This document shows, in pieces, positions 5,161 to 22,507 of a stretch of DNA of 64,000 nucleotides. The translations under genes and the position numbers were made by a program. The first letter of the stretch is position 1; every line of letters begins with the position of its first letter. A model generated the notes under the pieces. That model saw only the letters and a list, made by a program, of their open reading frames with translations. It ran no database searches and was not told the origin of the DNA. The stretch comes from Methylobacterium sp. (GTDB lineage: Bacteria; Pseudomonadota; Alphaproteobacteria; Rhizobiales; Beijerinckiaceae), in contig JADCBP010000010.1 in the NCBI GenBank assembly GCA_020253445.1, positions 1-64,000 on the forward strand. Reading direction: 5' to 3'.

Positions 5161-5991
5161 ATGCGCTCACGAAAGCTCTTTGCAATCACCTGTCTTCTTC
5201 CGACCCTGCTGGTCGTAACGGCCTTTTTTGTCATTCCGGCCGTCATGCTGCTCTTCATCGGTGCGGCCCGGGGGAGCGACGGGGAGGCCGGGCTCTGGCG
5301 CTATCTTGCCGTGCTCACGACGGAACGCTATCGTTCTGCGATGATCTCGACCGTGCTCCTCTCTCTGGGGGTGACGGCGACAACCCTGGTCATCGGCGGC
5401 ATTTCCGGCGTGTTTCTGGCCCGCAATCGATTTCCCGGTCGCGGGTTTCTGGTGGCATGCCTGACCTTTCCGCTGGCCTTTCCCGGGGTGGTGGTCGGGT
5501 TCATGGTCATCATGCTCGCCGGCCGGCTGGGCGTTTTCGCGAGCATCAGCCTGGCCCTGGGCGGCGATCGGCTGGTCTTCGCCTATTCGATGGTCGGACT
5601 TTTCATGGGCTACCTTTATTTTTCGACTCCGCGCGTGCTGTTGACGGTGATGGGGGTCGCCGAGAAACTCGACGGCCGGCTGATCGAGGCTGCGCGCTCG
5701 CTGGGTGCGGGGCCGTGGGCGGTTCAGCGTGACATCGTGCTGCCGGCGCTCGCTCCGGCCTTTGTCGCGGCGGGCTCGATCTGCTTTGCAACCGCGATGG
5801 GGGCATTCGGAACAGCGTTCACGCTGGCCACCCGGATCGATGTGTTGCCGATGGTCATCTATCAGGAGTTCACCGAAAGCGCGAATATAGCGATGGCCGC
5901 CGCATTGTCGGTCATGCTCGGTTTGGTCGCCTGGGCGATTCTGGCGCTGGCTCGCCTCAATGGCGGCTCCAATGTTGCGGCGGCGGGGTAA
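5161..5991 (+). CDS. ABC transporter permease (first of pair)
   Basis: 276-aa inner-membrane permease with about six hydrophobic segments, the first at residues 8-30. The cytoplasmic EAA loop that contacts the ATPase is visible as LIEAARSLGAGPWAVQRDIVLPALAPAFVAAG near residues 175-205. Fold and spacing match the binding-protein-dependent permeases of iron, polyamine and 2-aminoethylphosphonate transporters. There is a 65-base gap after the binding-protein gene. Works with the next permease and the ATPase to move the substrate across the inner membrane. Confidence 0.88.
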   Translation: MRSRKLFAITCLLPTLLVVTAFFVIPAVMLLFIGAARGSDGEAGLWRYLAVLTTERYRSAMISTVLLSLGVTATTLVIGGISGVFLARNRFPGRGFLVACLTFPLAFPGVVVGFMVIMLAGRLGVFASISLALGGDRLVFAYSMVGLFMGYLYFSTPRVLLTVMGVAEKLDGRLIEAARSLGAGPWAVQRDIVLPALAPAFVAAGSICFATAMGAFGTAFTLATRIDVLPMVIYQEFTESANIAMAAALSVMLGLVAWAILALARLNGGSNVAAAG

Positions 5992-9077: not shown

Positions 9078-12048
9078 TCAGGCGGCAGTGTAGGTGGCGG
9101 GCAGGATGAGAGCCTTGCGCGCCGTTGTCTGCGCCGCGCGATCCCAGAGGAAGTCGCCAGAGAAAGCGATATGCTCCCACCCGACCGGCGAGGTATGGGC
9201 GACCAGGTGGTTGGGCGCGGCTTGGCCGGTGGCGGCGAGATGGGCCAGAGCGTCGCTCATGTACGTGGCATTCCAGTAGACGATCGCCGCAATCACGAGA
9301 TTGAGGCCGGATGCCCGATAGAGCTGCGCCTCATGGCTGCGGTCGATGATCCGCCCCTGCCGGAATGTGCAGATGGCCTGGGTCAGGGCTTGGCGTTGCT
9401 CGCTCTTGTTCAACCCGGCCTGACAACGCCGACGCAATGAGGGATTCTCTAACCAGTCGAGCATGAACAAGGTGCGCTCGATCTTGCCGATTTCCTGAAG
9501 GGCGACGTCGATCTGGTTCTTTCTCTCGAAGGCCGCAAGTTTTCTGAGCATCGCGGAGGGCATGGCGTGGCCCGAGCGGAGCGAGGCAACGAGACGGAGG
9601 ATATCGTCCCAGTGCGTGGCGATGATATCGGCGCGGATGCGCTTGCCGAGCAGGGCTTGAAGACCGGGATAGGTCGAAGGGCTTTCCAGCGGTGCAAGAC
9701 GGCGGTCGGGGAAGTCGCGCAGGCGCGGGCAGAACCGGAACCCGAGCAGCGCGCAGAGCGCGAAGACATGATCGGTCGCACCGCCCGTGTCGGTGTAATG
9801 CTCGTGGATGGAAAGCGATGCCCCATGATGCAGAAGCCCGTCGAGCACATAGGGCGCTTCATGCGTGGCTGCCGAAAGCACGGTGACGTGGAACGGGGCA
9901 TGGCGATCGGAGACATGGGTATAGAAGGAGAAGCCGGGATCGACGCCATAACGGGCATTGATCTCGCCGCCTGGCGCCACGCGCTTGCCGCCCCGAAAGA
10001 ACTGTCCATCCGAACTCGAGGTGGTTCCCTCGCCCCACGCGGCCGCGATTGGCAATTTGTGGTGGGCGTCGATGAGGATCGCCAGAGCAGCGCGATAGGT
10101 TTCCTCGCGGATATAGGCATCCCGGGTCCAGATCAGCTGATCGCGCGTAACGCCCTGGCTTGAAGCCGCCATGCGGGAAAGGCCGAGATTGGTCGCATCG
10201 GCAAGGATCGCCGCCAGCAGCGCATTGTCACGGGGAGCGGAAGCGCCCGTGCGCAGATTGGTGAAGGCGGAGAGGAACCCGGTTTGCCGGGCGACTTCAT
10301 GCGGGAGTTCCGTGATGCGGATGCGCGGCATCATGGCGTCGAGCCGCTGGGCGAGGTGCTCCGCTTCCGGGATTGGCGTTGTTCGGATCGGGGAGATCGA
10401 CAGGCGCCCGTCTATCAGCGTGACGCCCTCGAGCTGCCCTCGTGCAAGACGCCGCGCGAAGCGCTTCAGCCGGTCGTCGAGTTCCTGACCACGTTCAGCC
10501 AGCCAGTGCTCCGGAGTGCCCGGTAAGCCGAGGCTTCCGGCGGTGGATGTCGCCGCCGCCGAGGAGGCCAGATAGGCGTCGAAGCGTCGGTATGATGCGG
10601 AACGCTCGACATAGACATCCCCCGAACGCAGCTTGTTGCGCAAATGCGCAAGGACTGCCGTTTCGTAAAGCCGGCGGCTGATCCGCCCATCGGGCTGGAC
10701 AACGATTTTGCGCCATTCCTTCCGGAAGGGCATCGGTGCATCCGCCGGCACCTCTCGACGCCCGGACCGGTAGAGCGTCCTCAGGGTCGCGATAGCCGCG
10801 AGGGTACGGGAATCGCCCTTGCCCGCCCTGAACTCCAGGGCCTCGATCAGAGCGGGCGCGAACTTGCGCAACGTCTGTTACCGATCCGCAGCGAGAACGA
10901 GAGGGTCTTCTCCCGTGGAAGCGGTGATGGCGACAATCTCGGGCCGGGCGCGCAAAAGGGTCGCCCATCCGATGCTGCTGTCGAGCGCAGTGATCGGATC
11001 GGCATCGGTTTCGACTGCACTTGCCAAAGCGTCAATCGTGCGTTGGAAGAGGCCCATCAGCCGGGCTACATCCCGGGCGGTTCCGGCATAGTTCCTTGCT
11101 TGTCGTGCCTTGGCACGCGTGAACAACCCGCCGATCAGCTTGTCTACCATCGCAAGAGCGGCGTCGATAAGCTGGGCCTCTGCGTCAGTGAGATAGGCGA
11201 CCAGCATCGCCCGCCGGCGCAGCGGCGTATAGCGCTCGATCAGATAGGCCGGCGACAGGCGGGCTTCCCGGGCGAACTGCCGTGCCCGATCGGGATGCAC
11301 CGTAGCGGCTCTTGCCGCTGGCAGATCGAGCTCCCGAACGAACGCCAGGCGCTCCAGCAACAGACCAATATGATCGGGTCTGGCGGCATCGGGCAGGGTC
11401 TTGAGCCAGGACAGGCGCGACATGCCGAGCGCCTTGTCCCTGACGATCAGGGCATCGAGGGCAGCAGATTGTGTTTCCGAGAGCGGTACGACGAGCGCTT
11501 GCATGGCGGCCTTAGCGCGCGCGGGCCCGGCCAGCAAGTCCCGCACGCTCGATCGTAGACAGGGATGGCATCAGGATATGGTTGGCGCGCAGGGAAGCAA
11601 TGATCCCGGTCGCGATCGGCAGCCCACGATCCGTGCCGCGCGCAGCTTCGGCTGCGGCGTTGATCATCATCGGGATATCGCCGCGACCAGCAAGCCGGAG
11701 CCCGAGGGTTTGTGCCAGATCGCGGGCATGGTCTGTCATGGTTTGCGCCCGCGCCGCGTAGTCGGAGAAGGCCAGTGCAGGAAGGTCGAGAACCTCGGCC
11801 AGGTGCGAGACCAGCTCGACCGGAACCGCAAACCCACCCTGAAGCCAGCCCGCGAGCGTCACACCGGGATGACGCAGCAGAGCGAGTTGCATAGCAACGC
11901 CAAGACGGTTGGCATCGTCACGCCGCTCCCCGATCAAGTCGAGATCGGAGGCCTCAACGGTATAAAGCCGGACCAGTTCGTCGCGGTCCTGCGGGATATG
12001 AACGAGCCTGCGGCGCTCGGCATCCGTCAGCAGTCGGTTCCTGTCCAT
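9078..12048 (-). pseudogene. tnpA: Tn3-family transposase TnpA, disrupted by one frameshift and one nonsense codon
   Basis: Together the pieces cover about 990 residues, the normal size of a Tn3 transposase. The N-terminal part (12048 to about 11512) begins MDRNRLLTDAERRRLVHIP with a good GGAGG ribosome site. It runs out of frame in the GC-alternating tract near 11515-11530, and the correct frame continues as AKAAMQALVVPLS. A second lesion is an in-frame TAA at 10878-10880, between LAADR and QTLRKFAPAL, where related transposases carry a tyrosine; a single base change explains it. The remaining 597-codon part keeps all three predicted catalytic acidic residues (SSDGQ, HYTDTGG, LNKSE). Transposition would need an intact transposase in trans unless the lesions are sequencing errors. 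Confidence 0.9.
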
Positions 12049-12194
12049 TCCGGCCTCCTCGCCTGTCCACAAAAGGGTGTTCTGCGCTATGGACGGCGAG
12101 GCATAAAGAGACGTGGTTTATGGACGGATTCGACAAGGCACGAACCACATGCGCTGCCATGTCCACGGAACGGCCGGTTGGGAGACAGCAAACG
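12049..12194. promoter_or_regulatory. Divergent tnpA/tnpR promoter region and presumed res site
   Basis: 146 bases separate the divergently transcribed transposase and resolvase genes. In Tn3-family elements of this layout the resolution site and both promoters lie here. I did not resolve individual resolvase-binding subsites. Confidence 0.5.
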
Positions 12195-12764
12195 ATGGGC
12201 GATATCCTGGGCTATGCGCGCGTCTCGACCGGAGATCAGGACATTGCTGGCCAGACCCTGCGCCTCGAACAGGCCGGCGCTATCCGGGTCTTCTCCGATA
12301 TCCGCTCCGGCAAGAGTATGGATCGGCCAGGGCTTACCGCGCTGCTCGACTTTGCCCGCAAGGGCGATACGCTCGCCATCGTCCGCCTCGACCGGCTGGG
12401 ACGTTCGCTCGCCGAACTCCTCTCCACCGTCGCCATGCTGAAAGAGCGGGGCATCGCCCTGCTCAGCCTCGAGGAAAAGATCGATACCTCGTCGGCCGCC
12501 GGCGAACTCGTCTTTCACGTCTTCGGCGCCATCGCGCATTTCGAGCGAAGGCTCATCTCCGAGCGGACGCGTGACGGCATCGCATCCGCAAGGGCAAAGG
12601 GAAAGCGCCCGGGCCGCCGGCCGCTCGATCAGGCCAAGGTGGATGCCGCCAAGACGCTCATTGCCGCCGGCACCTCCCCCTCGGAGGCCGCCCGACAGCT
12701 CGGTTTGGGCCGCTCGACCCTCTACCGGGAAATGCGAAGGCTAGGTATCTCACGGCCAGACTGA
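12195..12764 (+). CDS. tnpR: Tn3-family resolvase (serine recombinase)
   Basis: 189-aa serine site-specific recombinase that resolves transposition cointegrates. The catalytic serine is in GYARVSTGDQD (about residue 11); the arginine-rich active-site motif RLDRLGRS and the long E-helix region (HVFGAIAHFERRLISERTRDGIASARAKGK) follow. The C-terminal helix-turn-helix is TSPSEAARQLGLGRSTLYREM. I placed the start at ATG 12195 because GDILGYARVST is the standard N-terminus; upstream in-frame codons from 12120 would fall in the res region. It appears intact, unlike the transposase. Confidence 0.93.
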   Translation: MGDILGYARVSTGDQDIAGQTLRLEQAGAIRVFSDIRSGKSMDRPGLTALLDFARKGDTLAIVRLDRLGRSLAELLSTVAMLKERGIALLSLEEKIDTSSAAGELVFHVFGAIAHFERRLISERTRDGIASARAKGKRPGRRPLDQAKVDAAKTLIAAGTSPSEAARQLGLGRSTLYREMRRLGISRPD

Positions 12765-12800
12765 ACTCGTTACGGAACACAGGCAGAAACGGAAAACACC

Positions 12801-14168
12801 ATGCCGACAAGCCATGACCTCAAGGGTCTGATGAAATTCCTCGCCCGTGACGAATGGCGCCCATGCTTCCAGGAGGTCATGGCGGATCATTTCGGGCCGG
12901 TTCTCGATGCGGGAGAGCTGGAGTTCAACGACCTCGCCGGCATCATCGGCGAGGATTGGGCGATGACGCTCTGGGGCTGCGCCTTCGAGGATTTCCTGAC
13001 CCAGGAGTTCGAGGAGGTCGAAGGCGTCAACCTTGTTGACGAATATCTCAGGCGTCGGGGCTGGAAAGAAACCGCGCAATCCAGAGCTTACATGAAGGCG
13101 CTGCGCTCATCCGTCATGAGCCTCTACGAGGTCAGCGAGATTGTGCCGGGAAAATCGCTGAGGGCACGAGACCTCATTCGCGGTGGTGACCTCATTCCCG
13201 TCAGCGAGGGAACCGCCACCAGAACTTTGAAGCAATGGGACCGGATCGCGGCGCGGATCGTCCCCGTCCTCGGCAAGAACATCTTCGCAGGCGGTCTGCT
13301 GCCCTTCACACAAGAGGCCACCGACTCCTTGTTTGATGGCCTCAGACAGATGTTCGGCCGGAAGAATGCGAGGAAACTGCCGGTCATCAAGGACGAGGAG
13401 CTTCAGGTGGCGGCATCCCTGTTCACGCTCGCATGGCTGTTCGACACCCTCGAAAGGGCCGCAGGCACCGCGCTCCCTACGATCACGAACGCTGAAGGCG
13501 ATGAGATTGTCTTCCACGATACGCGCTTTCCGCTAACCGCCAGTGTGACACAGAAAGACATCGCCGCTCGCCTCAACACCATTCCCGGCATGCGCCAGGA
13601 GAATGCGAAATTCTGGAACTGGCTTGAAAACGAGCCCGGAGGACGTGCCAAAGTGAAGAACACCGCAGCCCAATCCTTCGACACGATGATGGATAACGGT
13701 CTGCGCGTTCTGGGCAATATCGAGTTGAAAGCGCGCACCCTGCATCTTTCAACCAATTCCGCAGCCCGCGCAGAGGAAGGCAAGGCCCTGCTCCAGCAGG
13801 CGCTGGGCACGCTTATTGGCGCGCCGCTCACGCAAATCCGAACCGTCGAGCAGATGATGGCAGAGGGACCGGTCAAACAGGCCACCCCATCAGCGACGCC
13901 TGACCTTCCTCCGGAAATTATGGCCAAACTCATTCACGACCACATGGACCGCCACTACCGCGAAACGCTCGATCAACCAGTCGGTATGTTCGGCAATAAA
14001 ACACCCCGACAGGCCGCCAGAACGCTCAAAGGCCGGGAAAAGACCGCAGAATGGCTCAAATATCTCGAAAACCAATCTGCTGTGCGGTCCGGCCCGGCCG
14101 ATCCCATGGGGAGTTATGATTTCTCATGGATGTGGAAAGAACTCGGCATCCTCAATCTCCGACGGTAG
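12801..14168 (+). CDS. Transposon passenger gene of unknown function (455 aa; C-terminal motif resembling a MbcA/ParS-type or SEC-C-associated segment)
   Basis: 455-aa soluble protein that I cannot assign to a known family with confidence. It lacks a signal peptide and membrane segments. The N-terminal half is acidic and helical (FEDFLTQEFEEVEGVNLVDE). A central part reads PVSEGTATRTLKQWDRIAARIVP. Near the C-terminus (about residues 385-430) PVGMFGNKTPRQAARTLKGREKTAEWLKYLEN matches the pattern gG-x-TPR-x-AART-x-x-GRE seen at the end of some SEC-C and MbcA/ParS-like proteins; I treat this as a weak resemblance. It lies 36 bases after tnpR in the same direction and inside the terminal repeats, so it travels with the transposon. 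Base composition is similar to the neighbouring transposon genes. Confidence 0.75.
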   Translation: MPTSHDLKGLMKFLARDEWRPCFQEVMADHFGPVLDAGELEFNDLAGIIGEDWAMTLWGCAFEDFLTQEFEEVEGVNLVDEYLRRRGWKETAQSRAYMKALRSSVMSLYEVSEIVPGKSLRARDLIRGGDLIPVSEGTATRTLKQWDRIAARIVPVLGKNIFAGGLLPFTQEATDSLFDGLRQMFGRKNARKLPVIKDEELQVAASLFTLAWLFDTLERAAGTALPTITNAEGDEIVFHDTRFPLTASVTQKDIAARLNTIPGMRQENAKFWNWLENEPGGRAKVKNTAAQSFDTMMDNGLRVLGNIELKARTLHLSTNSAARAEEGKALLQQALGTLIGAPLTQIRTVEQMMAEGPVKQATPSATPDLPPEIMAKLIHDHMDRHYRETLDQPVGMFGNKTPRQAARTLKGREKTAEWLKYLENQSAVRSGPADPMGSYDFSWMWKELGILNLRR

Positions 14169-14810: not shown

Positions 14811-14859
14811 CTGACACCCACCTGAATTCCACGAAGAATGGTATTCAGATTGAAGTCAG
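14811..14859. promoter_or_regulatory. Paired CTGAC-N6-CTGAA operator between the PepSY gene and the response regulator
   Basis: CTGACACCCACCTGAA at 14811-14826 and, on the opposite strand, CTGACTTCAATCTGAA at 14844-14859, with exactly 17 bases between. Each half is a direct repeat of CTGA with an 11-base period, the spacing OmpR/PhoB-type regulators use. The same architecture recurs at 16897-16945. The regulator encoded at 14900 is the obvious candidate to bind it. Confidence 0.7.
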
Positions 14860-14899
14860 CTTGGTGCATTACTCGCGGCGGGTGCTCGAAGGGGGCGTC

Positions 14900-15562
14900 A
14901 TGCGGGTTCTGCTGATAGAGGATGATGCCCTGCTTGGGGCCGCGGTGCGGGACCATGTGCTCGCCGAAGGGCATGCAGTGGACTGGGTGATGCGACTCGC
15001 CGAGGCCGAGGATTGCCGGGCGGTTGCCACCTACAATCTCATCCTGCTCGACCTTATGTTGCCCGATGGGCGCGGGCTCGATTTCCTGAAGCGTGTTCGA
15101 TCGGGTGGCGAAGCAACGCCCGTGATCATCCTCACGGCCCGCGACCAGCTTTCCGACCGGATTTCCGGGCTCAATGCCGGAGCAGACGATTATCTCGTCA
15201 AGCCCTTCGCGCTTGCCGAACTCACAGCCCGCATCGGCTCGGTCACGCGGCGAGCGAGTGGCCAACCTGCGACGGTGATTGTGCTGGGAGATGTCGAGAT
15301 CCATCTGGCCGAGCGCTCGGCAACCAGGAACGGTCGTGCCTTGCCGATTACCGCCCGCGAATGGGCGGTGCTCGATGCCTTGCTCAGCAGGCCGAGGGGC
15401 GTTGTCTCCAAGAATGACATCGAGGAGCGGCTTTATGCGCTCGATGCCGAGGTCGAGAGCAACACGATCGAGGTCTATGTCGCGCGGCTGCGCAAGAAGA
15501 TCGGGCATGATCGCATCCTGACCGAACGCGGCCTCGGCTATCGCCTGGTGCGGGAGGGGTAA
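14900..15562 (+). CDS. OmpR-family response regulator
   Basis: 220-aa response regulator. The receiver domain (residues 1-115) shows the acidic pair in LLIEDDALLG, the phospho-acceptor Asp near residue 51 in LILLDLMLPDGRG, the Thr in IILTARD, and the Lys in DYLVKPFALAEL. The winged-helix output domain (about 125-220) ends EVYVARLRKKIGHDRILTERGLGYRLV. Start at ATG 14900; an in-frame ATG at 14798 would overlap the operator. The kinase gene follows after 6 bases. Likely target sites are the paired CTGAC-N6-CTGAA elements at 14811-14859 and 16897-16945, which would give autoregulation. Confidence 0.94.
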   Translation: MRVLLIEDDALLGAAVRDHVLAEGHAVDWVMRLAEAEDCRAVATYNLILLDLMLPDGRGLDFLKRVRSGGEATPVIILTARDQLSDRISGLNAGADDYLVKPFALAELTARIGSVTRRASGQPATVIVLGDVEIHLAERSATRNGRALPITAREWAVLDALLSRPRGVVSKNDIEERLYALDAEVESNTIEVYVARLRKKIGHDRILTERGLGYRLVREG

Positions 15563-15568
15563 GCCCTC

Positions 15569-16900
15569 ATGCGCGCAACCCCATCCGTTGTCGGTTTCAG
15601 CCTCCAGACCCGCCTCCTGGTAGGTCTCGGGCTGGCGATTGCCGTTGGCTGGCTCATGGCTGTGGCCGGGGCAGGTCTCATCATCCGGCACGAGATCGAC
15701 GAGGTGTTCGACAGCGCCATGCAGGAAATGGTGCAGCGTGTGCTGCCGTTGGCTTACGCGGATATTCTCGCGCGGGAAGCAGATGACACGGTGGAACAGC
15801 GCCTGCCCGATGTTGGCAAGCACGAGGAATACATCACCTATGTCGTCCGTGATGGCTCCGGCCGCGTGCTTCTCCAGTCCCATGATGCGGATCCGGCGCT
15901 GTTTCCGCCCGATCTTGTGACTGGTTTCAGGAACTGGAACGGCGGCCGCTTCTACACGGCCAGCGCTGTCAGTGGGTCCATCCTCGTCAGCGCGATGGAG
16001 CGCCCGGGCCATCGTGCGAGCACGGTTCGGCAGAGTCTTGTCGCGCTGTCCCTGCCGCTGCTTCTGCTCCTGCCGGGCATGGTTGGCGCGACAATCTGGC
16101 TCGTGTCACGCAGCGTCCGTCCGATCGCAACCTTTGGGACAGTCATCGCTTCGCGCGGCGAGGGCAATCTGGCGCCAATTGAATCAGCCGGCTTGCCGAA
16201 CGAGATCCGGCCGGTCGAGCGGGCTGTCAATGTCCTGCTCGAGCGCCTCCGGCGTGCGCTGGAAACGGAGCGGAGCCTCACGGCCAATGCCGCGCATGAA
16301 TTGCGAACGCCCGTGGCCGGCGCGCTGGCGCAGACACAGCGGTTGATCGCCGATCTCGACCATCCCGCCCATCGGGCGCGCGCTGCCGATATCGAGGCGG
16401 CCTTGTTGCGGCTCGCGCGCCTCACGGAAAAACTGCTGCAACTGGCCAAAGCCGAAGGCGGCAACCTGAGAAGCAAGACGGAAACAGACCTTCGCACAAT
16501 TTTTCCGCTGGTTTTCGCTGATTCTCCCGACGCTGGGCGCATTGAACTCAACCTGCCGGAGCAGCCCATCCTCTCGGATGTCGATATTGATGTCTACGCG
16601 ATCGCCTTGCGCAATTTGGTCGAGAATGCCCTGAAGCATGGCCCGCCGGATGAGCCGATCCTTGTGGTGCTCGGCGAAGACGGCGCGCTTTCTGTCGCCA
16701 ATGGCGGGCCATCCATCGCGATCGAGGAATTCCAGCGGCTTTGCCAGCGTTTCGAGCGTGGCACCTCACTTGCCGAAGGTGCTGGCCTCGGCCTTGCTAT
16801 CGTCTCCGCGATTGCCATGGGGCTAGGCGGAACTTTGACCGCCGCAACACCGGCAAAGCGCAACGGAGTCGAGATCCGTCTCGCCTTCCCGCTTCGCTGA
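15569..16900 (+). CDS. Membrane sensor histidine kinase
   Basis: 443-aa two-component sensor. A first transmembrane helix is at about residues 12-36, a periplasmic loop of about 125 residues (GRVLLQSHDADPALFPP, then NGGRFYTASAVSGS) follows, and a second helix lies around 160-185. After a HAMP-like linker come the phosphorylation motif TANAAHELRTPVAGALAQTQ (His near residue 247) and the ATP-binding motifs LRNLVENALKHGPP (N box) and GAGLGLAIVSAIA (G box). The periplasmic part resembles the two-component sensor N-domain of QseC-like kinases. Works with the adjacent regulator. The stop codon overlaps the second paired operator. Confidence 0.93.
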   Translation: MRATPSVVGFSLQTRLLVGLGLAIAVGWLMAVAGAGLIIRHEIDEVFDSAMQEMVQRVLPLAYADILAREADDTVEQRLPDVGKHEEYITYVVRDGSGRVLLQSHDADPALFPPDLVTGFRNWNGGRFYTASAVSGSILVSAMERPGHRASTVRQSLVALSLPLLLLLPGMVGATIWLVSRSVRPIATFGTVIASRGEGNLAPIESAGLPNEIRPVERAVNVLLERLRRALETERSLTANAAHELRTPVAGALAQTQRLIADLDHPAHRARAADIEAALLRLARLTEKLLQLAKAEGGNLRSKTETDLRTIFPLVFADSPDAGRIELNLPEQPILSDVDIDVYAIALRNLVENALKHGPPDEPILVVLGEDGALSVANGGPSIAIEEFQRLCQRFERGTSLAEGAGLGLAIVSAIAMGLGGTLTAATPAKRNGVEIRLAFPLR

Positions 16901-16945
16901 CACGAAGCTGAACGAAAATCACGCGACGCTTCAGGTGCGTGTCAG
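16897..16945. promoter_or_regulatory. Paired CTGAC-N6-CTGAA operator upstream of the DUF2271 gene
   Basis: CTGACACGAAGCTGAA at 16897-16912 on the plus strand and CTGACACGCACCTGAA on the minus strand at 16930-16945, again with exactly 17 bases between halves. Architecture and spacing are identical to 14811-14859. It begins inside the kinase stop codon and ends 44 bases before the DUF2271 start, suggesting a separate, regulator-dependent promoter for the redox genes. Confidence 0.7.
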
Positions 16946-16989
16946 TCTCAAGCGAGAGTCTTCGGTTCATCACCGACCGGAGACCTCCC

Positions 16990-17451
16990 ATGAAAAAACC
17001 AACTCTCGCCTTGGCCCTCACCCTGCCGTTTCTGGCGCCCGTTCTTGCCGAAGCGCGCCCGGTACGCATCACCACAACGCTGAATGCCTATGGCGGTGAT
17101 GGGGCTTATCTCGCGATCTACGTGACGGACAAGGCCGGCAAACTCCAGCAGACCATCCATGTCGCGGGTGGAAAGGCGAAGTATCACAAGCATCTCTCCG
17201 GCTGGTTCCGCCAATCCGGCGGGCGCATCGACGGCACGACGGGTGCCAGCGTCGGTGCCGGCCGCAGCCTGACCGTCAGCGCCGAGATTGCCGATGCCCT
17301 GATCGATGCGGGCTTCGAAATCCGCGTCGACAGCGCGGTGGAGAAGGAAAGCGATGTCCCCGCCGATGCGCGGATCACGCTCGATAAAGCCAGCATCGGC
17401 AAGCCTGCATCCGGTCGCGGCTATGTGAAATCCATCGCAATCGAGATGTGA
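16990..17451 (+). CDS. DUF2271 periplasmic protein with predicted FMN-attachment motif
   Basis: 153-aa exported protein. Residues 1-22 are a signal peptide (MKKPTLALALTLPFLAPVLA). The body is a DUF2271-like domain (VRITTTLNAYGGDGAYLAIYVTDKAGKLQQTIHVAG, then YHKHLSGWFRQSG). At residues 81-87 the sequence DGTTGAS fits the ApbE flavin-transfer consensus (D-G-x-T/S-G/S-A-T/S), so Ser87 is a plausible covalent FMN site; an apbE gene lies two genes downstream. I chose the ATG at 16990 because it gives the signal peptide. Its stop overlaps or touches the next gene. Probable role: a periplasmic flavin electron carrier fed by the membrane reductase encoded next. That role is inference. Confidence 0.82.
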   Translation: MKKPTLALALTLPFLAPVLAEARPVRITTTLNAYGGDGAYLAIYVTDKAGKLQQTIHVAGGKAKYHKHLSGWFRQSGGRIDGTTGASVGAGRSLTVSAEIADALIDAGFEIRVDSAVEKESDVPADARITLDKASIGKPASGRGYVKSIAIEM

Positions 17452-17462
17452 CGGAGGCCGTG

Positions 17463-19673
17463 ATGCTGCGCCAATGGCATGCTCTTCCCGGCCTGTTTCT
17501 CGCGCTGGTGCTCGCCGTCACGGCCGGCACCGGCGCCATTATCGCAGGACAGGCCGCTCTCGATGCGGCCACGGCACCACGGGTTGCTGAAGCGACGATA
17601 TCGCTGGCGGCTCTCGCCGAGACGATCACCACGCAGATTCCCGGTGTCGAGAAGATCACCCGAACACCTTCAGGACGGGTGCGCGTGACGTATCTTGACC
17701 AAGGCCGCCCGCGCTCGGTTGTTGTGGACCCGAAGACCGGCATCCCGACTGCCACCGACACAGCCTCGCCAACCTTGCGCATGATCACGAACCTGCATCG
17801 CGCCTGGCTTTCGGGGGATGGTGGCCGGCTGGTTGCCGGTGGAGCCGCCTTCGTGATGTTGCTCCTCTGCCTGTCCGGGCTTCTCATGCTGAAGCGCATG
17901 TTCGGCGGCTGGTTGGCCCTGCTCCGACCTTTCCGTGGCGACGGCATCCGCCGCTGGCACCTTGAACTGGGGCGCTTCGCGGTTGCCGGCATGCTCCTCT
18001 CCTCGGTGACAGGCCTGCACATGTCGCTGGTCGGGTTTGAAATCCTGCCGGATGGCGCAACCGAGGATGTCTTTGTCACCGCGAGCGGAGAAGCGCCGCG
18101 TCCCCTCAGCGCAATGGATGGGCTGGAGACGCTCTCGCTCGCCAATCTGCGCGAGATCACTCTGCCTGATCCGGCGGATGCCAGTGACCCGATCATCATC
18201 CGTACGGATGCGGCCATCCGCTTCGTCGATGCCGCGACGGGGCAGGTCCTGCGAGAGGATCGCTATTCCCTCGCCTGGCATGTGCGGGATATCGCCTATC
18301 GCCTGCATACGGCGGAGGGCATGCTCTGGTTGGCCATTCTGCTGGCGATCAGTTCGGCCGGCGGACTCGTGCTTGCGCTGACCGGGTTGACAATCGGCCT
18401 GCGCCGGCGTCTGGCCTCGGGCCGCATTCGCGCCAATGCGGCTTCCGAAACGGCCGATATCCTGCTGCTTGTTGGCTCCGAGGGTGGTTCCACGATGCGC
18501 GTCGCGAAGGCGCTGCACCATGCGCTGGCGGCTTCTGGGCGCCGGGTCCACCTCGCGCAGATGAACGGCCTGCCCACCCGTTCTCCCGCTGGCCACATGA
18601 TCATTCTTACTGCAACGGCGGGCGATGGCGAGGCACCGGGTTCGGCCAGCGAGTTCCTCGAAAACCTTGCCCGATGGCAGGGTGCCCGGCCCGATGTGAT
18701 GATCGTCGGTTTCGGCGATCGGCAGTTTCCCCGGTTCTGCGGCTATGCCGACACGGTCGAGGCGGCTTGTCTGGCCCATGGATTCCAGCTCGCGATGCCC
18801 ACCGAACGGATCGACCGGCAATCGGCCGAAGCGGTCTCGCGATGGGTTGAACAGCTGGCCTTTCGCCTCGATCTGCCCTTGCAACTGACGCTCGACCAGG
18901 CGAGTCCCGCCAGCCAGGTCTATCGCTTGATCGACCGCGAGGATTACGGGGCTGAAGTGCAGGCTCCTACAGCCATTCTCCGTTTCGAGATCGTGCCGCG
19001 ATTCCGGTGGCTGCCCGCATCGCTCCAGCACATCCTTGGCTGGATGCCGCGCTTCGAGCCGGGCGACCTTGTGGCGATTTCTCCGCCCTCTGACCCCCGG
19101 CCGCGCTTCTATTCCATCGCGTCCACCTCGTGCAGTGGCATTCTGGAAATCTGCGTGCGGCATCAGCCAGGCGGGATCTGTTCAGGCTATCTCTGCGGCC
19201 TTTCGCCGGGCGAAGACATCACGGCCACAATCCGCCCAAACCCGGCTTTCCGGCCGGATGCGAAGGCCACGTCACTGATCCTGATCGGAGCCGGGGCCGG
19301 CATTGCTCCGCTTGTCGGCTTTGTGCGGAACGCCCGGCCGGGCCGTCCGGTTCGGCTTTATTGGGGTGGCCGCGATCCGAATTCGGATTTCCTGTTTCGT
19401 AAGGACCTCGAGAATGCGCATAAGACCGGCCGACTGACGCGCCTCAGCACGATCTTCTCGCGCATTCGCGGCGGTGGATATGTTCAGGATCTCATCACAA
19501 GTGACGCTGCCGAACTTCGTGCGGCCGTCGCTGCCGGCGGGCAGATCCTGATCTGCGGCGGGCGCAACATGGCCGAAGGCGTTCGCCTGGCACTGGCCGA
19601 GGCACTGGCCCCGATGGGCCTCGATCTTCCCACCTTGCGCCAAAACGGAAGGCTCCTTGAAGATGTCTACTAA
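17463..19673 (+). CDS. PepSY-type membrane flavoreductase (PepSY-TM, flavodoxin and FNR modules)
   Basis: 736-aa fusion protein. An N-terminal PepSY-TM part has membrane helices near residues 8-28, 120-145, 180-200 and 290-320, with PepSY-like periplasmic loops between. Then comes a flavodoxin-like domain (about 335-470, LLLVGSEGGSTMRVAKALHHAL), then an FAD/NAD(P)-binding reductase half: RFYSIAST (FAD), PGGICSGYLCGL, GAGAGIAPLVGFV (nucleotide), LYWGGRDP and ILICGGRNMAEGV. This is the sulfite-reductase-flavoprotein-like arrangement that carries electrons from cytoplasmic NAD(P)H across the inner membrane. ATG 17463 has a GGAGG site 5 bases upstream and is preferred over GTG 17448. It sits between the predicted flavoprotein carrier and apbE. 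Confidence 0.9.
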   Translation: MLRQWHALPGLFLALVLAVTAGTGAIIAGQAALDAATAPRVAEATISLAALAETITTQIPGVEKITRTPSGRVRVTYLDQGRPRSVVVDPKTGIPTATDTASPTLRMITNLHRAWLSGDGGRLVAGGAAFVMLLLCLSGLLMLKRMFGGWLALLRPFRGDGIRRWHLELGRFAVAGMLLSSVTGLHMSLVGFEILPDGATEDVFVTASGEAPRPLSAMDGLETLSLANLREITLPDPADASDPIIIRTDAAIRFVDAATGQVLREDRYSLAWHVRDIAYRLHTAEGMLWLAILLAISSAGGLVLALTGLTIGLRRRLASGRIRANAASETADILLLVGSEGGSTMRVAKALHHALAASGRRVHLAQMNGLPTRSPAGHMIILTATAGDGEAPGSASEFLENLARWQGARPDVMIVGFGDRQFPRFCGYADTVEAACLAHGFQLAMPTERIDRQSAEAVSRWVEQLAFRLDLPLQLTLDQASPASQVYRLIDREDYGAEVQAPTAILRFEIVPRFRWLPASLQHILGWMPRFEPGDLVAISPPSDPRPRFYSIASTSCSGILEICVRHQPGGICSGYLCGLSPGEDITATIRPNPAFRPDAKATSLILIGAGAGIAPLVGFVRNARPGRPVRLYWGGRDPNSDFLFRKDLENAHKTGRLTRLSTIFSRIRGGGYVQDLITSDAAELRAAVAAGGQILICGGRNMAEGVRLALAEALAPMGLDLPTLRQNGRLLEDVY

Positions 19674-20550
19674 ATCGCTTGTCCGTCTCACTCTGAATGG
19701 CCAGACAATGGGAACGCGCTATTCCGTCATCGCCTATGCAGAACCATCCATGGATGTGCAGGCGCTTGGTCGCGAGCTTCATGCGGCGGTGACGGATGTC
19801 GATGCCGTCATGTCCAACTGGAAGGCGGATTCGGATATCTCGCGGCTCAATCGGGCGCAGATCGATCAATGGGTTGAACTCCCGGAAAGCCTGATCCATG
19901 TGCTCGAAACCGCTCTGGCTATCGAAGCACAATCGATGGGTGCGTTCGATATCGGCGTTGGTGCGGCAGTCGGCGCATGGGGCTTCGGCCCACTTGCAGA
20001 AAAAATCGCTTCGGGAGGCGCTGGACCAAGGCCAGTCACCCGGGAGACCCTCGAACTGGACAGGACCCGGCATCGAGCGCTCAAGCATGGGCCCCTCAGC
20101 CTCGATCTATCGGGCATCGCGAAGGGGTATGGCGTCGATCAGTTGGGTGATGTGCTGAAAGCCGAAGGCCTCTCCCACTGGCTTGCCAGCATTGATGGCG
20201 AAGTCCGAGCCGGTGGCCCGAAGCCGGATGGCACACCGTGGACAATTGGCCTTGAGCGTCCCGTGATCGGAAAACGAGAGCTTTCCGGCGTCATCGAAAT
20301 AGGCGAGATGGCCGTGGCGACTTCTGGCAGTTACCGTCAATGTCGGGAAGTGGGCGGCCGGATGGTCTCGCACACGATCGACCCAGCAACTGGAACGCCT
20401 GTTGCCGGGAAACAGACTTCAGTCACCGTTCTTGCGCCGACCTGCATGGAAGCCGATGCCTGGGCCACGGCGATCTTGGTCGATGGTGTCTGGCCGCCAA
20501 GGGGTTTTCCTGCGCCATCGGGATGCGAAGCAATCGTCCTAAATGCATGA
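19663..20550 (+). CDS. apbE: FAD:protein FMN transferase (ApbE)
   Basis: 295-aa ApbE-family enzyme, which transfers FMN from FAD onto Thr or Ser of target proteins. Family motifs are clear: NGQTMGTRYSVIAY, GAFDIGVGAAVGAWGFG, SLDLSGIAKGYGVDQL, SIDGEVRAGGPKPDG, ATSGSYRQ, HTIDPATGTPV and ADAWATAILVDG (metal-binding Asp and Thr). It overlaps the end of the reductase gene by 11 bases. The likely client is the DUF2271 protein at 16990. Oddly, no signal peptide or lipobox is visible, although most ApbE proteins acting on exported clients have one; a slightly longer start at 19657 does not add one. Confidence 0.93.
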   Translation: MSTKSLVRLTLNGQTMGTRYSVIAYAEPSMDVQALGRELHAAVTDVDAVMSNWKADSDISRLNRAQIDQWVELPESLIHVLETALAIEAQSMGAFDIGVGAAVGAWGFGPLAEKIASGGAGPRPVTRETLELDRTRHRALKHGPLSLDLSGIAKGYGVDQLGDVLKAEGLSHWLASIDGEVRAGGPKPDGTPWTIGLERPVIGKRELSGVIEIGEMAVATSGSYRQCREVGGRMVSHTIDPATGTPVAGKQTSVTVLAPTCMEADAWATAILVDGVWPPRGFPAPSGCEAIVLNA

Positions 20551-20875
20551 AAATTGCGATCTTTCCCTTGAATAGACCTAGTCTTAGAGTAGGTCACGGC
20601 CCTTTAGCTTCTCGTCGCTTTCTCACAGGGTTGAATCCTGGCACATAACGGCCGCAACGACCCAAGATTTAAAATGGCTGCTTCGTTGCTGGTTCAAGCA
20701 TTGACTTGTCAGACCGCTTCCGGCCCCCTGATAGGCAGGATTGCGCCCCCGTTTTGGACACTCAAGGTGCTGTGTGTAGATGCCGAAAGCCGCCATTGAT
20801 GAGATCCTCTTCGCCTCAGGCAAGGCAGGGGCGGTTCAGTTCGGCGTCATATTTCTCCTACGAGTCATCCCACAG
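20551..20875. other. Gene-free stretch between apbE and the CRISPR array
   Basis: About 325 bases with no recognisable gene. A small inverted repeat GACCTA/TAGGTC (20575-20595) might end the apbE transcript. The stretch just before the first repeat could contain the array leader, but I see no clear leader signature. Confidence 0.4.
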
Positions 20876-21175
20876 GTTGCCGCTGGACCGCGATCTCTGA
20901 ACCGCTATTCTCATCGTTACCAACGCGCTGACGGCGGCGAAGTTGCCGCTGGACCGCGATCTCTGAACCGCTATTCTGCATGATCACATCGGAGCACTTG
21001 CCCGCGCGTTGCCGCTGGACCGCGATCTCTGAACCGCTATTCTCGTGGCGCTGCGCGCCCGGTCCGTGAAGGGGTTGCCGCTGGACCGCGATCTCTGAAC
21101 CGCTATTCTCCTTGCACAAGAGCTGGAGCGCGTGGCGATGTTGCCGCTGGACCGCGATCTCTGAACCGCTATTCT
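20876..21175 (+). CRISPR. CRISPR array, 5 repeats of 36 bases and 4 spacers of 30 bases (type II-C)
   Basis: Five identical 36-base repeats at 20876-20911, 20942-20977, 21008-21043, 21074-21109 and 21140-21175; all four spacers are exactly 30 bases. The repeat starts GTTGCCGCTGGACC and ends GAACCGCTATTCT, the 5' GTTG form also seen in Neisseria-type arrays. Transcription on the plus strand is inferred because the tracrRNA anti-repeat (26111 onward) is complementary to the first 26 bases of the repeat in this orientation. The repeat end contains a promoter-like TATTCT with TGGACC 16 bases upstream, so each repeat may start its own short crRNA, as known in Neisseria type II-C. Spacers match nothing I noticed in this window. 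Confidence 0.97.
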
Positions 21176-21179
21176 GGAT

Positions 21180-21218
21180 ACGCCTCTATCTCGTTGAACT
21201 GAAACGCGATAGAGGCGT
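21180..21218. other. Perfect hairpin at the cas-proximal end of the array
   Basis: Arms ACGCCTCTATC (21180-21190) and GATAGAGGCGT (21208-21218) pair perfectly over 11 bases with a 17-base loop. It begins 4 bases after the last repeat. There is no T-run after it on the plus strand, so it is not a classic terminator; it may stop array transcription or mark the array boundary. Confidence 0.45.
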
Positions 21219-21248
21219 TCCAGATAGCAAAAAAATCCATTGCTCTTG

Positions 21249-21587
21249 TCAAAACAAGGCAAGCTGATCCGGGTTTTTCTGAGGGCGTTTTCGTCGTTGG
21301 CCTGAGAATCGGATGATGTTTTCATACTGCTTGTCCGTAAATGTAAGGATGTGAACCTCGCCATCCGAAGGCAGGTTTCCTTCGATCCGGCGCAGATAGG
21401 CCTCAAACTGTTCCTTGCCATTGCAGAAGCGGGCGTAGACTGAAAACTGGCTCTTCTCGAAGCCCTCGTCCAGCAGAAACTCACGAAACTTGGTTGCGAC
21501 GCGGGACTCAGCCTTGCTCCCCACCGGCAGGTCAAACATCACAAAAATCCACATGAGCCGAAATCCACTGAGCCTTGTCGCTGTCAT
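21249..21587 (-). CDS. cas2: CRISPR-associated endoribonuclease-fold protein Cas2
   Basis: 112 aa from the ATG that overlaps the cas1 stop (ATGA), or 101 aa if Met12 (MWIFVMFDLPVGSK) is used, which is the usual Cas2 N-terminus. The ferredoxin-like beta strand with its conserved Asp is WIFVMFDLP; later VYARFCNGKEQFEAYLRRIEGNLPSDGEVHILTFTDKQYENII is typical of type II Cas2. Forms the adaptation complex with Cas1. Last gene of the cas9-cas1-cas2 operon, 73 bases from the array. Confidence 0.94.
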   Translation of the reverse strand: MTATRLSGFRLMWIFVMFDLPVGSKAESRVATKFREFLLDEGFEKSQFSVYARFCNGKEQFEAYLRRIEGNLPSDGEVHILTFTDKQYENIIRFSGQRRKRPQKNPDQLALF

Positions 21588-22507
21588 GGTATCAGAGCGT
21601 CCAGCCCCGCAAATTCGAGTGCTGACGGTGGCTTAGGCGGAGAAAGAGCGGAAGCTTGTCCGTTCTCGAAGCTGTCACATAGGCTGCGCGCAAATTGTAA
21701 GGCCGCACCGCTGACGGTGGTGGTGCCTTCCGACGACGGCAGGTCGAGGGCAATCAGGCGTGCGAAAGCTCGTTTGGCTTGTGGTGTCACGGTGTCCACG
21801 CCGGCGCCTTTCAGGCGAAGGGCGAGCGAATCCACAAGCGGGCGAAAGGGTTCGATCAGATCATCGGCCAATGCGAAGGCATTTCCGCGATTGGCGTGAT
21901 GGATACCAATGGAAGGATGCAGCCCGGCCCCAACGATAGCTCGGGCGCAAAGGGAACGCAGAACCGTGTAGCCATAGTTCAGAAGGGCGTTGATATCGTC
22001 CGCAGAGCGGTCCCGCCTGAAGGTATCCCCCATCAGCATCGGCCAATATCGACGCGCCGCCTGGGCCTCGATGTTTTCAGGGTCGCCTGAACCCACCGTG
22101 CGGGCCAGCAGGTCGAAGGCAGAAGGATCATGACCGTGCGCGGAGAGTGCGGCGGCTTGCCAGTGGATCTTGGCGATAACGATGCGACGCCAGAGCTGTT
22201 TCGTTAGAGGGCGGCCAGCTTCCCACTGGGCGCGCAAACGAGCGTTTTGCGCGTGGTGGCCCTCAAGCGGCAAGCACAGCGCGACCGGCGCATGATTTGC
22301 CGCGCAAAAAACAACGGGCGCGCCGCGCTCCGCCAGCGCGACAACCAGGTTAGCGGACCAGGTAACCCCGTGCGCGTTGATGATGACCGCGGCAATGTCA
22401 TCGAGCGGGATCCTGCCCACCTCCTGTCGATCCTCCGTGACAACTAGAAAACCGCGCAGAACCGAAAGGTGGCGACCGTCCGTGGCGATATCGACAATCC
22501 GCTCCAT
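21584..22507 (-). CDS. cas1: CRISPR-associated integrase Cas1 (type II)
   Basis: 307-aa spacer-acquisition integrase. The N-terminal beta domain (RIVDIATDGRHLSVLRGFLVV, then VGRIPLDDIAAVIINAHGVTWS) is followed by the helical catalytic domain with the predicted metal ligands: Glu in PENIEAQAARRYWPMLMG, His in SIGIHHANRGNAFALADDLIEPFRPLVD and the Asp of the same segment. Length and layout match type II Cas1. It starts 15 bases after the cas9 stop and overlaps cas2 by 4 bases, so the three are one operon. Nothing suggests inactivation. Confidence 0.95.
   Translation of the reverse strand: MERIVDIATDGRHLSVLRGFLVVTEDRQEVGRIPLDDIAAVIINAHGVTWSANLVVALAERGAPVVFCAANHAPVALCLPLEGHHAQNARLRAQWEAGRPLTKQLWRRIVIAKIHWQAAALSAHGHDPSAFDLLARTVGSGDPENIEAQAARRYWPMLMGDTFRRDRSADDINALLNYGYTVLRSLCARAIVGAGLHPSIGIHHANRGNAFALADDLIEPFRPLVDSLALRLKGAGVDTVTPQAKRAFARLIALDLPSSEGTTTVSGAALQFARSLCDSFENGQASALSPPKPPSALEFAGLDALIP

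Follow-up and report, generated by a model that had tools for sequence, protein, structure and literature searches.

Two-component systems in which a small PepSY protein accompanies a sensor histidine kinase and a response regulator (RR) are a recognised and widespread kind of module, of which DbfQRS of Vibrio cholerae is the studied case and to which the system of BqsS also belongs (PMC12714742). A cluster of this kind, followed by DUF2271, reductase and apbE genes, lies in the first 64,000 nucleotides of contig JADCBP010000010.1 of Methylobacterium sp. (assembly GCA_020253445.1), a stretch hereafter referred to as the window. This report concerns a composite DNA site which occurs twice in the cluster and which very likely serves the encoded PepSY/kinase/RR system as its operator.

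The likeness to DbfQRS lies in the arrangement of the genes: there, a small secreted PepSY protein adjoins the kinase and the RR, layouts on opposite strands being described too, and here a small PepSY gene likewise adjoins the kinase and RR genes. The signal and the outputs differ, and neither DUF2271 nor an operator motif was found in the searched passages of that source (PMC12714742). The same passages report that a reporter for the V. cholerae relative was unresponsive to added iron, although BqsS had been reported as iron-responsive. A comparable binding site is that of BqsR from Pseudomonas aeruginosa, an OmpR-type RR whose operator is a pair of pentamers with a 6-bp spacer, the downstream pentamer lying over the -35 element and the effect being activation; a promoter can hold several such operators, the extra ones acting additively, and repeats sharing a pentamer keep the 6-bp spacing (PMC4682146). 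The BqsR pentamer is TTAAG (TTAAG-N6-TTAAG), whereas the pentamers here are CTGAC and CTGAA, and the consulted passages of that source mention no second operator that is reversed and fixed at a distance of 33 bp.

On the side of the output, PepSY-like flavinylation clusters combine a PepSY_TM reductase with an NAD-binding domain, ApbE, and a DUF2271 protein at whose [S/T]GA[S/T] site flavinylation by ApbE has been demonstrated (PMC8238504), and the same set is found here, with a PepSY_TM protein, ApbE and a DUF2271 protein carrying TGAS. The regulation named for such clusters is Fur repression, and the terms 'histidine kinase' and 'response regulator' are absent from the main text of that source; here, unlike in the described clusters, shared operators link a two-component system to the cluster.

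A composite site present twice in the genome

The composite reads CTGAC-N6-CTGAA-N17-TTCAG-N6-GTCAG, i.e. two tandem repeats (hereafter dimers) which face each other with their starts 33 bp apart. On both strands of the window, CTGAC-N6-CTGAA was matched exactly four times, and together the four matches make up two facing pairs with a gap of 17 bases, named site A and site B (Table 1). A first-pass annotation of the window had placed the composite, with this gap, between the PepSY gene and the RR and again upstream of the DUF2271/reductase/apbE genes, and the search recovered it at both positions. The start of site B overlaps the stop codon of the kinase gene (TGA 16898-16900). The RR start was set at 14900 and the DUF2271 start at 16990, both downstream of the sites, the longer listed open reading frames (ORFs), with starts further upstream, being unnecessary.

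The annotation had judged chance unlikely, and the counts agree. When the window was shuffled 200 times with its dinucleotides preserved, the exact dimer turned up 0.12 times on average (maximum 3), against four times in the real sequence; the full composite, observed twice, never did. Across the whole 3.28 Mb genome, with up to three mismatches allowed, the composite is found at just those two positions, while the backwards control pattern gave no match in the same search. Shuffles and genome-wide counts thus rule out chance or a repeat artefact as the origin of the composites. The single dimer pattern at up to two mismatches was found 41 times in the window versus 41.3 expected, so that what stands out is the exact matches and the way they pair. 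The two sites have spacers of fixed length but different letters, which rules out the recent duplication of one operator as well.

The RR carries a receiver and a winged-helix Trans_reg_C domain, and these Pfam domains support the OmpR/PhoB type to which it had been assigned. Its best-scoring curated models are PmrA and QseB, both far under the equivalog cut-offs (207.7 vs 330 bits and 187.4 vs 345 bits, respectively), by which the RR is neither PmrA nor QseB proper; the nearest solved relatives are the PmrA/BasR-DNA chains 8jo2, 4s04 and 4s05. The sites have the traits of OmpR/PhoB-type sites, namely tandem half-sites with a period of about 11 bp near the RR's own promoter, and the 11-base recurrence of CTGA, held by the annotation to suit a dimer of this type, is consistent with the 5-6-5 half-site geometry published in the passages on BqsR (PMC4682146).

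Conservation of the site with its regulator

The composite and the RR occur together across genomes (loci and genomes are referred to by L and G numbers). A sample of 100 relatives, counting the genome itself, has the site at up to two mismatches in 14, all of them among the 16 genomes with a close RR; the relatives without a close RR were also without the site (84/84), and the backwards control pattern gave one match. In a class sample of 385 genomes, 19 of which are RR-bearing, the site at up to one mismatch lies in RR-bearing genomes in all cases (7/7), and at up to two mismatches it is found in 12 genomes, nine of them RR-bearing. The others are G308, which holds a paralogue (L122, described below), and G318 and G455, whose sites are taken as chance. 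In a phylum sample of 398 genomes, the site at up to one mismatch is present in 11, all among the 23 RR-bearing ones, and the control pattern is matched in neither the class (385) nor the phylum (398) sample. Fisher tests of site against RR, uncorrected for kinship, give p values of 3e-15 (relatives), 2e-10 (class) and 2e-15 (phylum); the samples overlap, with G000 in all three and G027 and G364 in two, and hold 28 distinct site-bearing genomes. DUF2271 was matched in 12 of the relatives, all inside the 14 site-bearing ones, and G010 (a genome 78% complete) and G016 have the RR and the site with no DUF2271 match.

Beside the RR gene, a facing pair lies within 300 bp upstream in 56 of 72 distinct RR homologues (at least 50% identity). 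The spacing is 33 bp in 39 of them and 21, 25, 30, 32, 34, 42, 44, 51, 53, 54 or 58 bp in the others, and the values of 25, 30, 51, 53, 54 and 58 bp rule out a strict helical phasing at every site; seven further homologues have a single dimer. The facing pair tracks the divergent PepSY match (49/54 with it vs 7/18 without). In a tree of 71 RR rows, several deep branches include the 33-bp form, and a minimum of 17 switches between the four states (33, other spacing, single, none) is required, so that the other arrangements arose repeatedly. One branch (L023, L025, L027, L151 and L156) has neither the site nor an RR-adjacent PepSY match, as if the two had been lost together. At 46 loci, 63 pairs are facing (46 at 33 bp), one is back-to-back and nine point in the same direction.

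Thirty further pairs lie before DUF2271 or further PepSY genes, away from the RR, so that pairs recur upstream of orthologous RR and DUF2271 genes alike, where the annotation had proposed to look. At a match of at least 17 of 20, with ties resolved toward 33 (L103 being counted as 33), 29 of the 30 have exactly the 33-bp spacing; the exception, L064, is 49 bp and belongs to a different RR. At a looser cut (at least 16 of 20), 24 of 26 pairs not adjacent to the RR are at 33, the remaining two being a 16-of-20 match before the ApbE gene of the window, taken as chance, and L103, tied between 22 and 33; the second site of L018 (16 of 20) falls under the stricter cut. Six genomes in which site A is single or otherwise spaced (L020, L024, L026, L104, L106 and L129) have the 33-bp pair away from the RR. 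Ten of the 29 sites sit 420-510 nt before DUF2271, and there a gene probably intervenes. Judged by these sequences, the composites are one operator class, tied to one RR and with a fixed geometry.

Three loci outside this pattern were recorded. L064 (Bradyrhizobium) has, upstream of a PepSY_2 gene and with another RR (41% identity), a perfect facing pair of CTGACGAAAGCCTGAC and its mirror. L108 (G006:C21) has a perfect composite at 5327-5375, with a cytochrome b561 gene, a possible further target, beginning 75 nt on. L122 (G308) has a facing composite of its own at 1501-1549 (CTGAA-N6-CTGAA-N17-TTCAG-N6-TTCAG, 33-bp spacing), between MipA (622-1446) and a different RR (39% identity, 1596-2255). 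Facing pairs as a general PmrA/QseB-like feature are unsupported: a sequence-free search for facing tandem repeats 20-45 bp apart, made upstream of up to 64 loci (L033-L095 plus L122, without those whose upstream stretch was short or contained N) and taking the best 30, gave a perfect case at L122 alone, the search being blind to wider spacings such as those of L043 (58) and L064 (49).

Promoter signals and the direction of the sites

At RR-side sites, an A stands 12 bases past the gene-side end of the composite in 24 of 26 cases, and the mirror T is present in 24 of 26. Away from the RR the signal is one-sided: in 23 such sites the A is on the gene side in 21 and on the far side in 4 with L108 turned (22/23 on the gene side before turning), in a larger set the gene-side A is present in 28/29 and the mirror signal in 3/29, and in five hold-out sites the counts are 5/5 and 0/5. 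Ten new RR-side sites have the A on both sides in seven cases and on one side in three. By these counts, a site away from the RR appears to serve a single promoter while keeping both dimers; the label one-directional combines position with the absent mirror signal, and for some of the sites the arrangement of the genes was inspected by eye. The conserved A is read as the second base (-11) of a -10 box. On that reading 10 bp separate the predicted box from the gene-side dimer, which would span about -38 to -23, and the distal dimer would lie at -71 to -56.

A second asymmetry lies inside the composite. Where the site is away from the RR, an A/T triplet at positions 20-22 stands out from an otherwise variable 17-bp spacer (A/T in 87, 96 and 96% of 23 sites, flanks 41%); at least two of the three positions are A/T in 29/29 sites, and the triplet is present in 5/5 hold-out sites. 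When RR-side sites are turned toward the RR, the A/T peak falls at 26-28 (81, 73 and 62% of 26), i.e. at 20-22 viewed from PepSY. The triplet might be part of a half-site or a wing contact, but since it is off to one side a contact with polymerase fits better. Furthermore, the distal dimer is a better profile match than the gene-side dimer in 18 of 23 sites away from the RR (p 2.5e-4), while the difference is unclear at RR-side sites (17/27, p 0.44), these p values too being uncorrected for kinship.

The predicted elements and the genes of the cluster are collected in Table 1. Directly downstream of apbE are CRISPR repeats (five copies, 66-nt spacing) with cas2 and cas1 (20870-22507), and upstream of the cluster (9081-14165) a Tn3-family transposase and resolvase precede a 455-aa ORF (12801-14165) with no Pfam match; the cluster may thus adjoin a mobile element.

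Table 1. Composite sites, predicted promoter elements and genes of the cluster (positions in the window)
Feature	Positions	Strand	Basis or remark
Small PepSY_2 protein, 91 aa	14496..14771	-	Pfam PF13670; N-terminus signal-peptide-like by eye
Site A predicted -10 box toward PepSY_2, CATAGC, conserved A opposite T14799	14795..14800	-	Conserved offset
Site A composite operator, facing pair of tandem-dimer sites with starts 33 bp apart	14811..14859	.	Between divergent PepSY_2 and RR genes; kept upstream of orthologous RRs
Site A dimer on PepSY_2 side, CTGAC-N6-CTGAA	14811..14826	+	Pattern match
Site A off-centre A/T triplet AAT, positions 20-22 viewed from PepSY_2	14837..14839	.	
Site A dimer on RR side, TTCAG-N6-GTCAG on +	14844..14859	-	Pattern match
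Site A predicted -10 box toward RR, TACTCG, conserved A at 14871	14870..14875	+	Conserved offset
RR, receiver + Trans_reg_C	14900..15562	+	PF00072 3.1e-22, PF00486 3.4e-18
Sensor histidine kinase	15569..16900	+	HisKA, HATPase_c; HAMP slightly below cut-off
Site B composite operator upstream of DUF2271, reductase, apbE	16897..16945	.	Starts at kinase stop codon
Site B distal, reversed dimer (CTGACACGAAGCTGAA)	16897..16912	+	Pattern match; class of site
Site B off-centre A/T triplet AAT, positions 20-22, about -51 to -49	16917..16919	.	
Site B gene-side dimer, TTCAG-N6-GTCAG on +	16930..16945	-	Pattern match
Site B predicted -10 box toward DUF2271, GAGTCT, conserved A at 16957, weak match alone	16956..16961	+	Conserved offset
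DUF2271 protein, TGAS at residue 84 (candidate FMN attachment site)	16990..17451	+	PF10029
PepSY_TM + flavodoxin + NAD-binding reductase fusion	17463..19673	+	Pfam
ApbE (FAD:protein FMN transferase)	19657..20550	+	PF02424

Proposed mechanism and alternatives

In the pho box, class II activation is exerted by a dimer whose end lies about 10 bp upstream of the -10 box, and a position around -50, that of an UP element, suits the polymerase alpha C-terminal domain (alpha-CTD). We consider it probable that both sites serve the PepSY/kinase/RR system, with class II activation, a distal dimer that assists at site B, and electron export as the output; binding, activation, cooperativity, the part of the alpha-CTD and the physiological role are what we infer. 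The phosphorylated RR would fill each CTGAC-N6-CTGAA half as a tandem dimer, giving four half-sites per composite, and the dimer nearest to the gene, in the -35 region, would activate in the class II fashion of the pho box. Site A would act both ways, on PepSY_2 and on the RR/kinase operon itself. At site B the reversed and better-matching dimer, 33 bp (about three helical turns) upstream and on the same face, would load first and aid the weaker gene-side dimer, either directly or via the alpha-CTD on the triplet near -50. What is produced would be a periplasmic PepSY protein together with a flavin-based electron-export unit of reductase, DUF2271 and ApbE, probably for reduction outside the cytoplasm; iron would be among the candidates because PepSY-like clusters elsewhere are tied to iron reduction and Fur control (PMC8238504; PMC12004947).

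A bolder form of this proposal is possible, though we incline to doubt it: that the sites represent a new OmpR/PhoB operator architecture, in which facing tandem dimers three turns apart clamp the alpha-CTD on the triplet, the triplet rather than the symmetric operator directs strong transcription, and the distal dimer is a required co-activator at one-directional promoters.

The annotation had called the facing pair unusual. At the divergent PepSY/RR site this does not hold, since two back-to-back promoters give such a pair anyway; at the apparently one-directional promoters it does. The facing pair could accordingly be a back-to-back divergent operator from which the one-directional copies descend, their reversed dimer being a functionless relic, as is suggested by the -10 signal that each site A dimer has of its own (24/26 per side), by the loose RR-side spacing (39/56 at 33) and by the occurrence of lone dimers. 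We regard this as unlikely, because few one-directional sites still show the mirror -10 signal (3/29), yet the distal dimer is retained and outscores the gene-side one (18/23), and the 33-bp spacing is held in 29/30 pairs, including the six genomes in which site A differs. Somewhat less likely still is that the RR represses, or both represses and activates, from the composites: the gene-side dimer overlaps the promoter and could block polymerase, but its 10-bp distance to the predicted -10 box matches the pho-box activator layout, and the similar 5-6-5 operator of BqsR, with its downstream pentamer over -35, activates in the passages describing it (PMC4682146); a clear -35 hexamer was not found, though no search was aimed at one. 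That an unlinked, palindrome-reading regulator binds the composites instead of the encoded RR is very improbable; a symmetric 49-bp site could fit another factor, yet the site is absent in all 84 relatives lacking the RR, G010 (with the incompleteness given above) and G016 keep RR and site without a DUF2271 match, and direct repeats with an 11-bp period are the OmpR/PhoB pattern.

Several observations weigh against the activation by paired dimers that we prefer. The site is absent at 9 of the 72 RR homologues, and neither the site nor an RR lies within the 10 kb of L107, a second DUF2271 cluster (45% identity for DUF2271). Site A is one dimer only in L020, L104 and L106, and the genus of L135, L139 and L141 has a 21-bp site A and a lone dimer at a second place, so that two dimers are not required everywhere. 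The predicted -10 boxes are weak except for one base, in L108 that base is conserved on the opposite side, though its triplet fits, and in hold-out divergent sites with an adjacent PepSY gene the triplet was, by eye, on the expected side in 4 of 8. Moreover, all the counts take in related genomes.

Tandem half-sites with an 11-bp period are also the pattern of the pho box and the PmrA box, with other half-site letters than here, and we know of no description in which either has a second dimer, conserved and facing the first, and an off-centre A/T triplet. In the open-licence papers searched no published mention was found of the written motif or of a link between such an operator and DUF2271 clusters, nor any published match for opposite-orientation repeat operators of this sort, nor a paper on the structure of PmrA with polymerase. 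To our knowledge, the fixed facing pair at apparently one-directional promoters, together with the off-centre triplet, is new, although its parts are of known kinds.

With the composite, a PepSY-linked two-component system gains a concrete recognition code that is conserved in Alphaproteobacteria and recurs outside the class, and the system is thereby tied to flavin-based electron export. Divergent promoters and those that appear to point one way share a single 49-bp design, in which the -10 box and the A/T triplet alone switch sides. Such a design offers a clean natural experiment for asking how distant winged-helix regulators cooperate and what gives a symmetric operator its direction. As far as can be told from sequence, one sensor system very probably switches on, via these composites, the genes which move electrons across the membrane.
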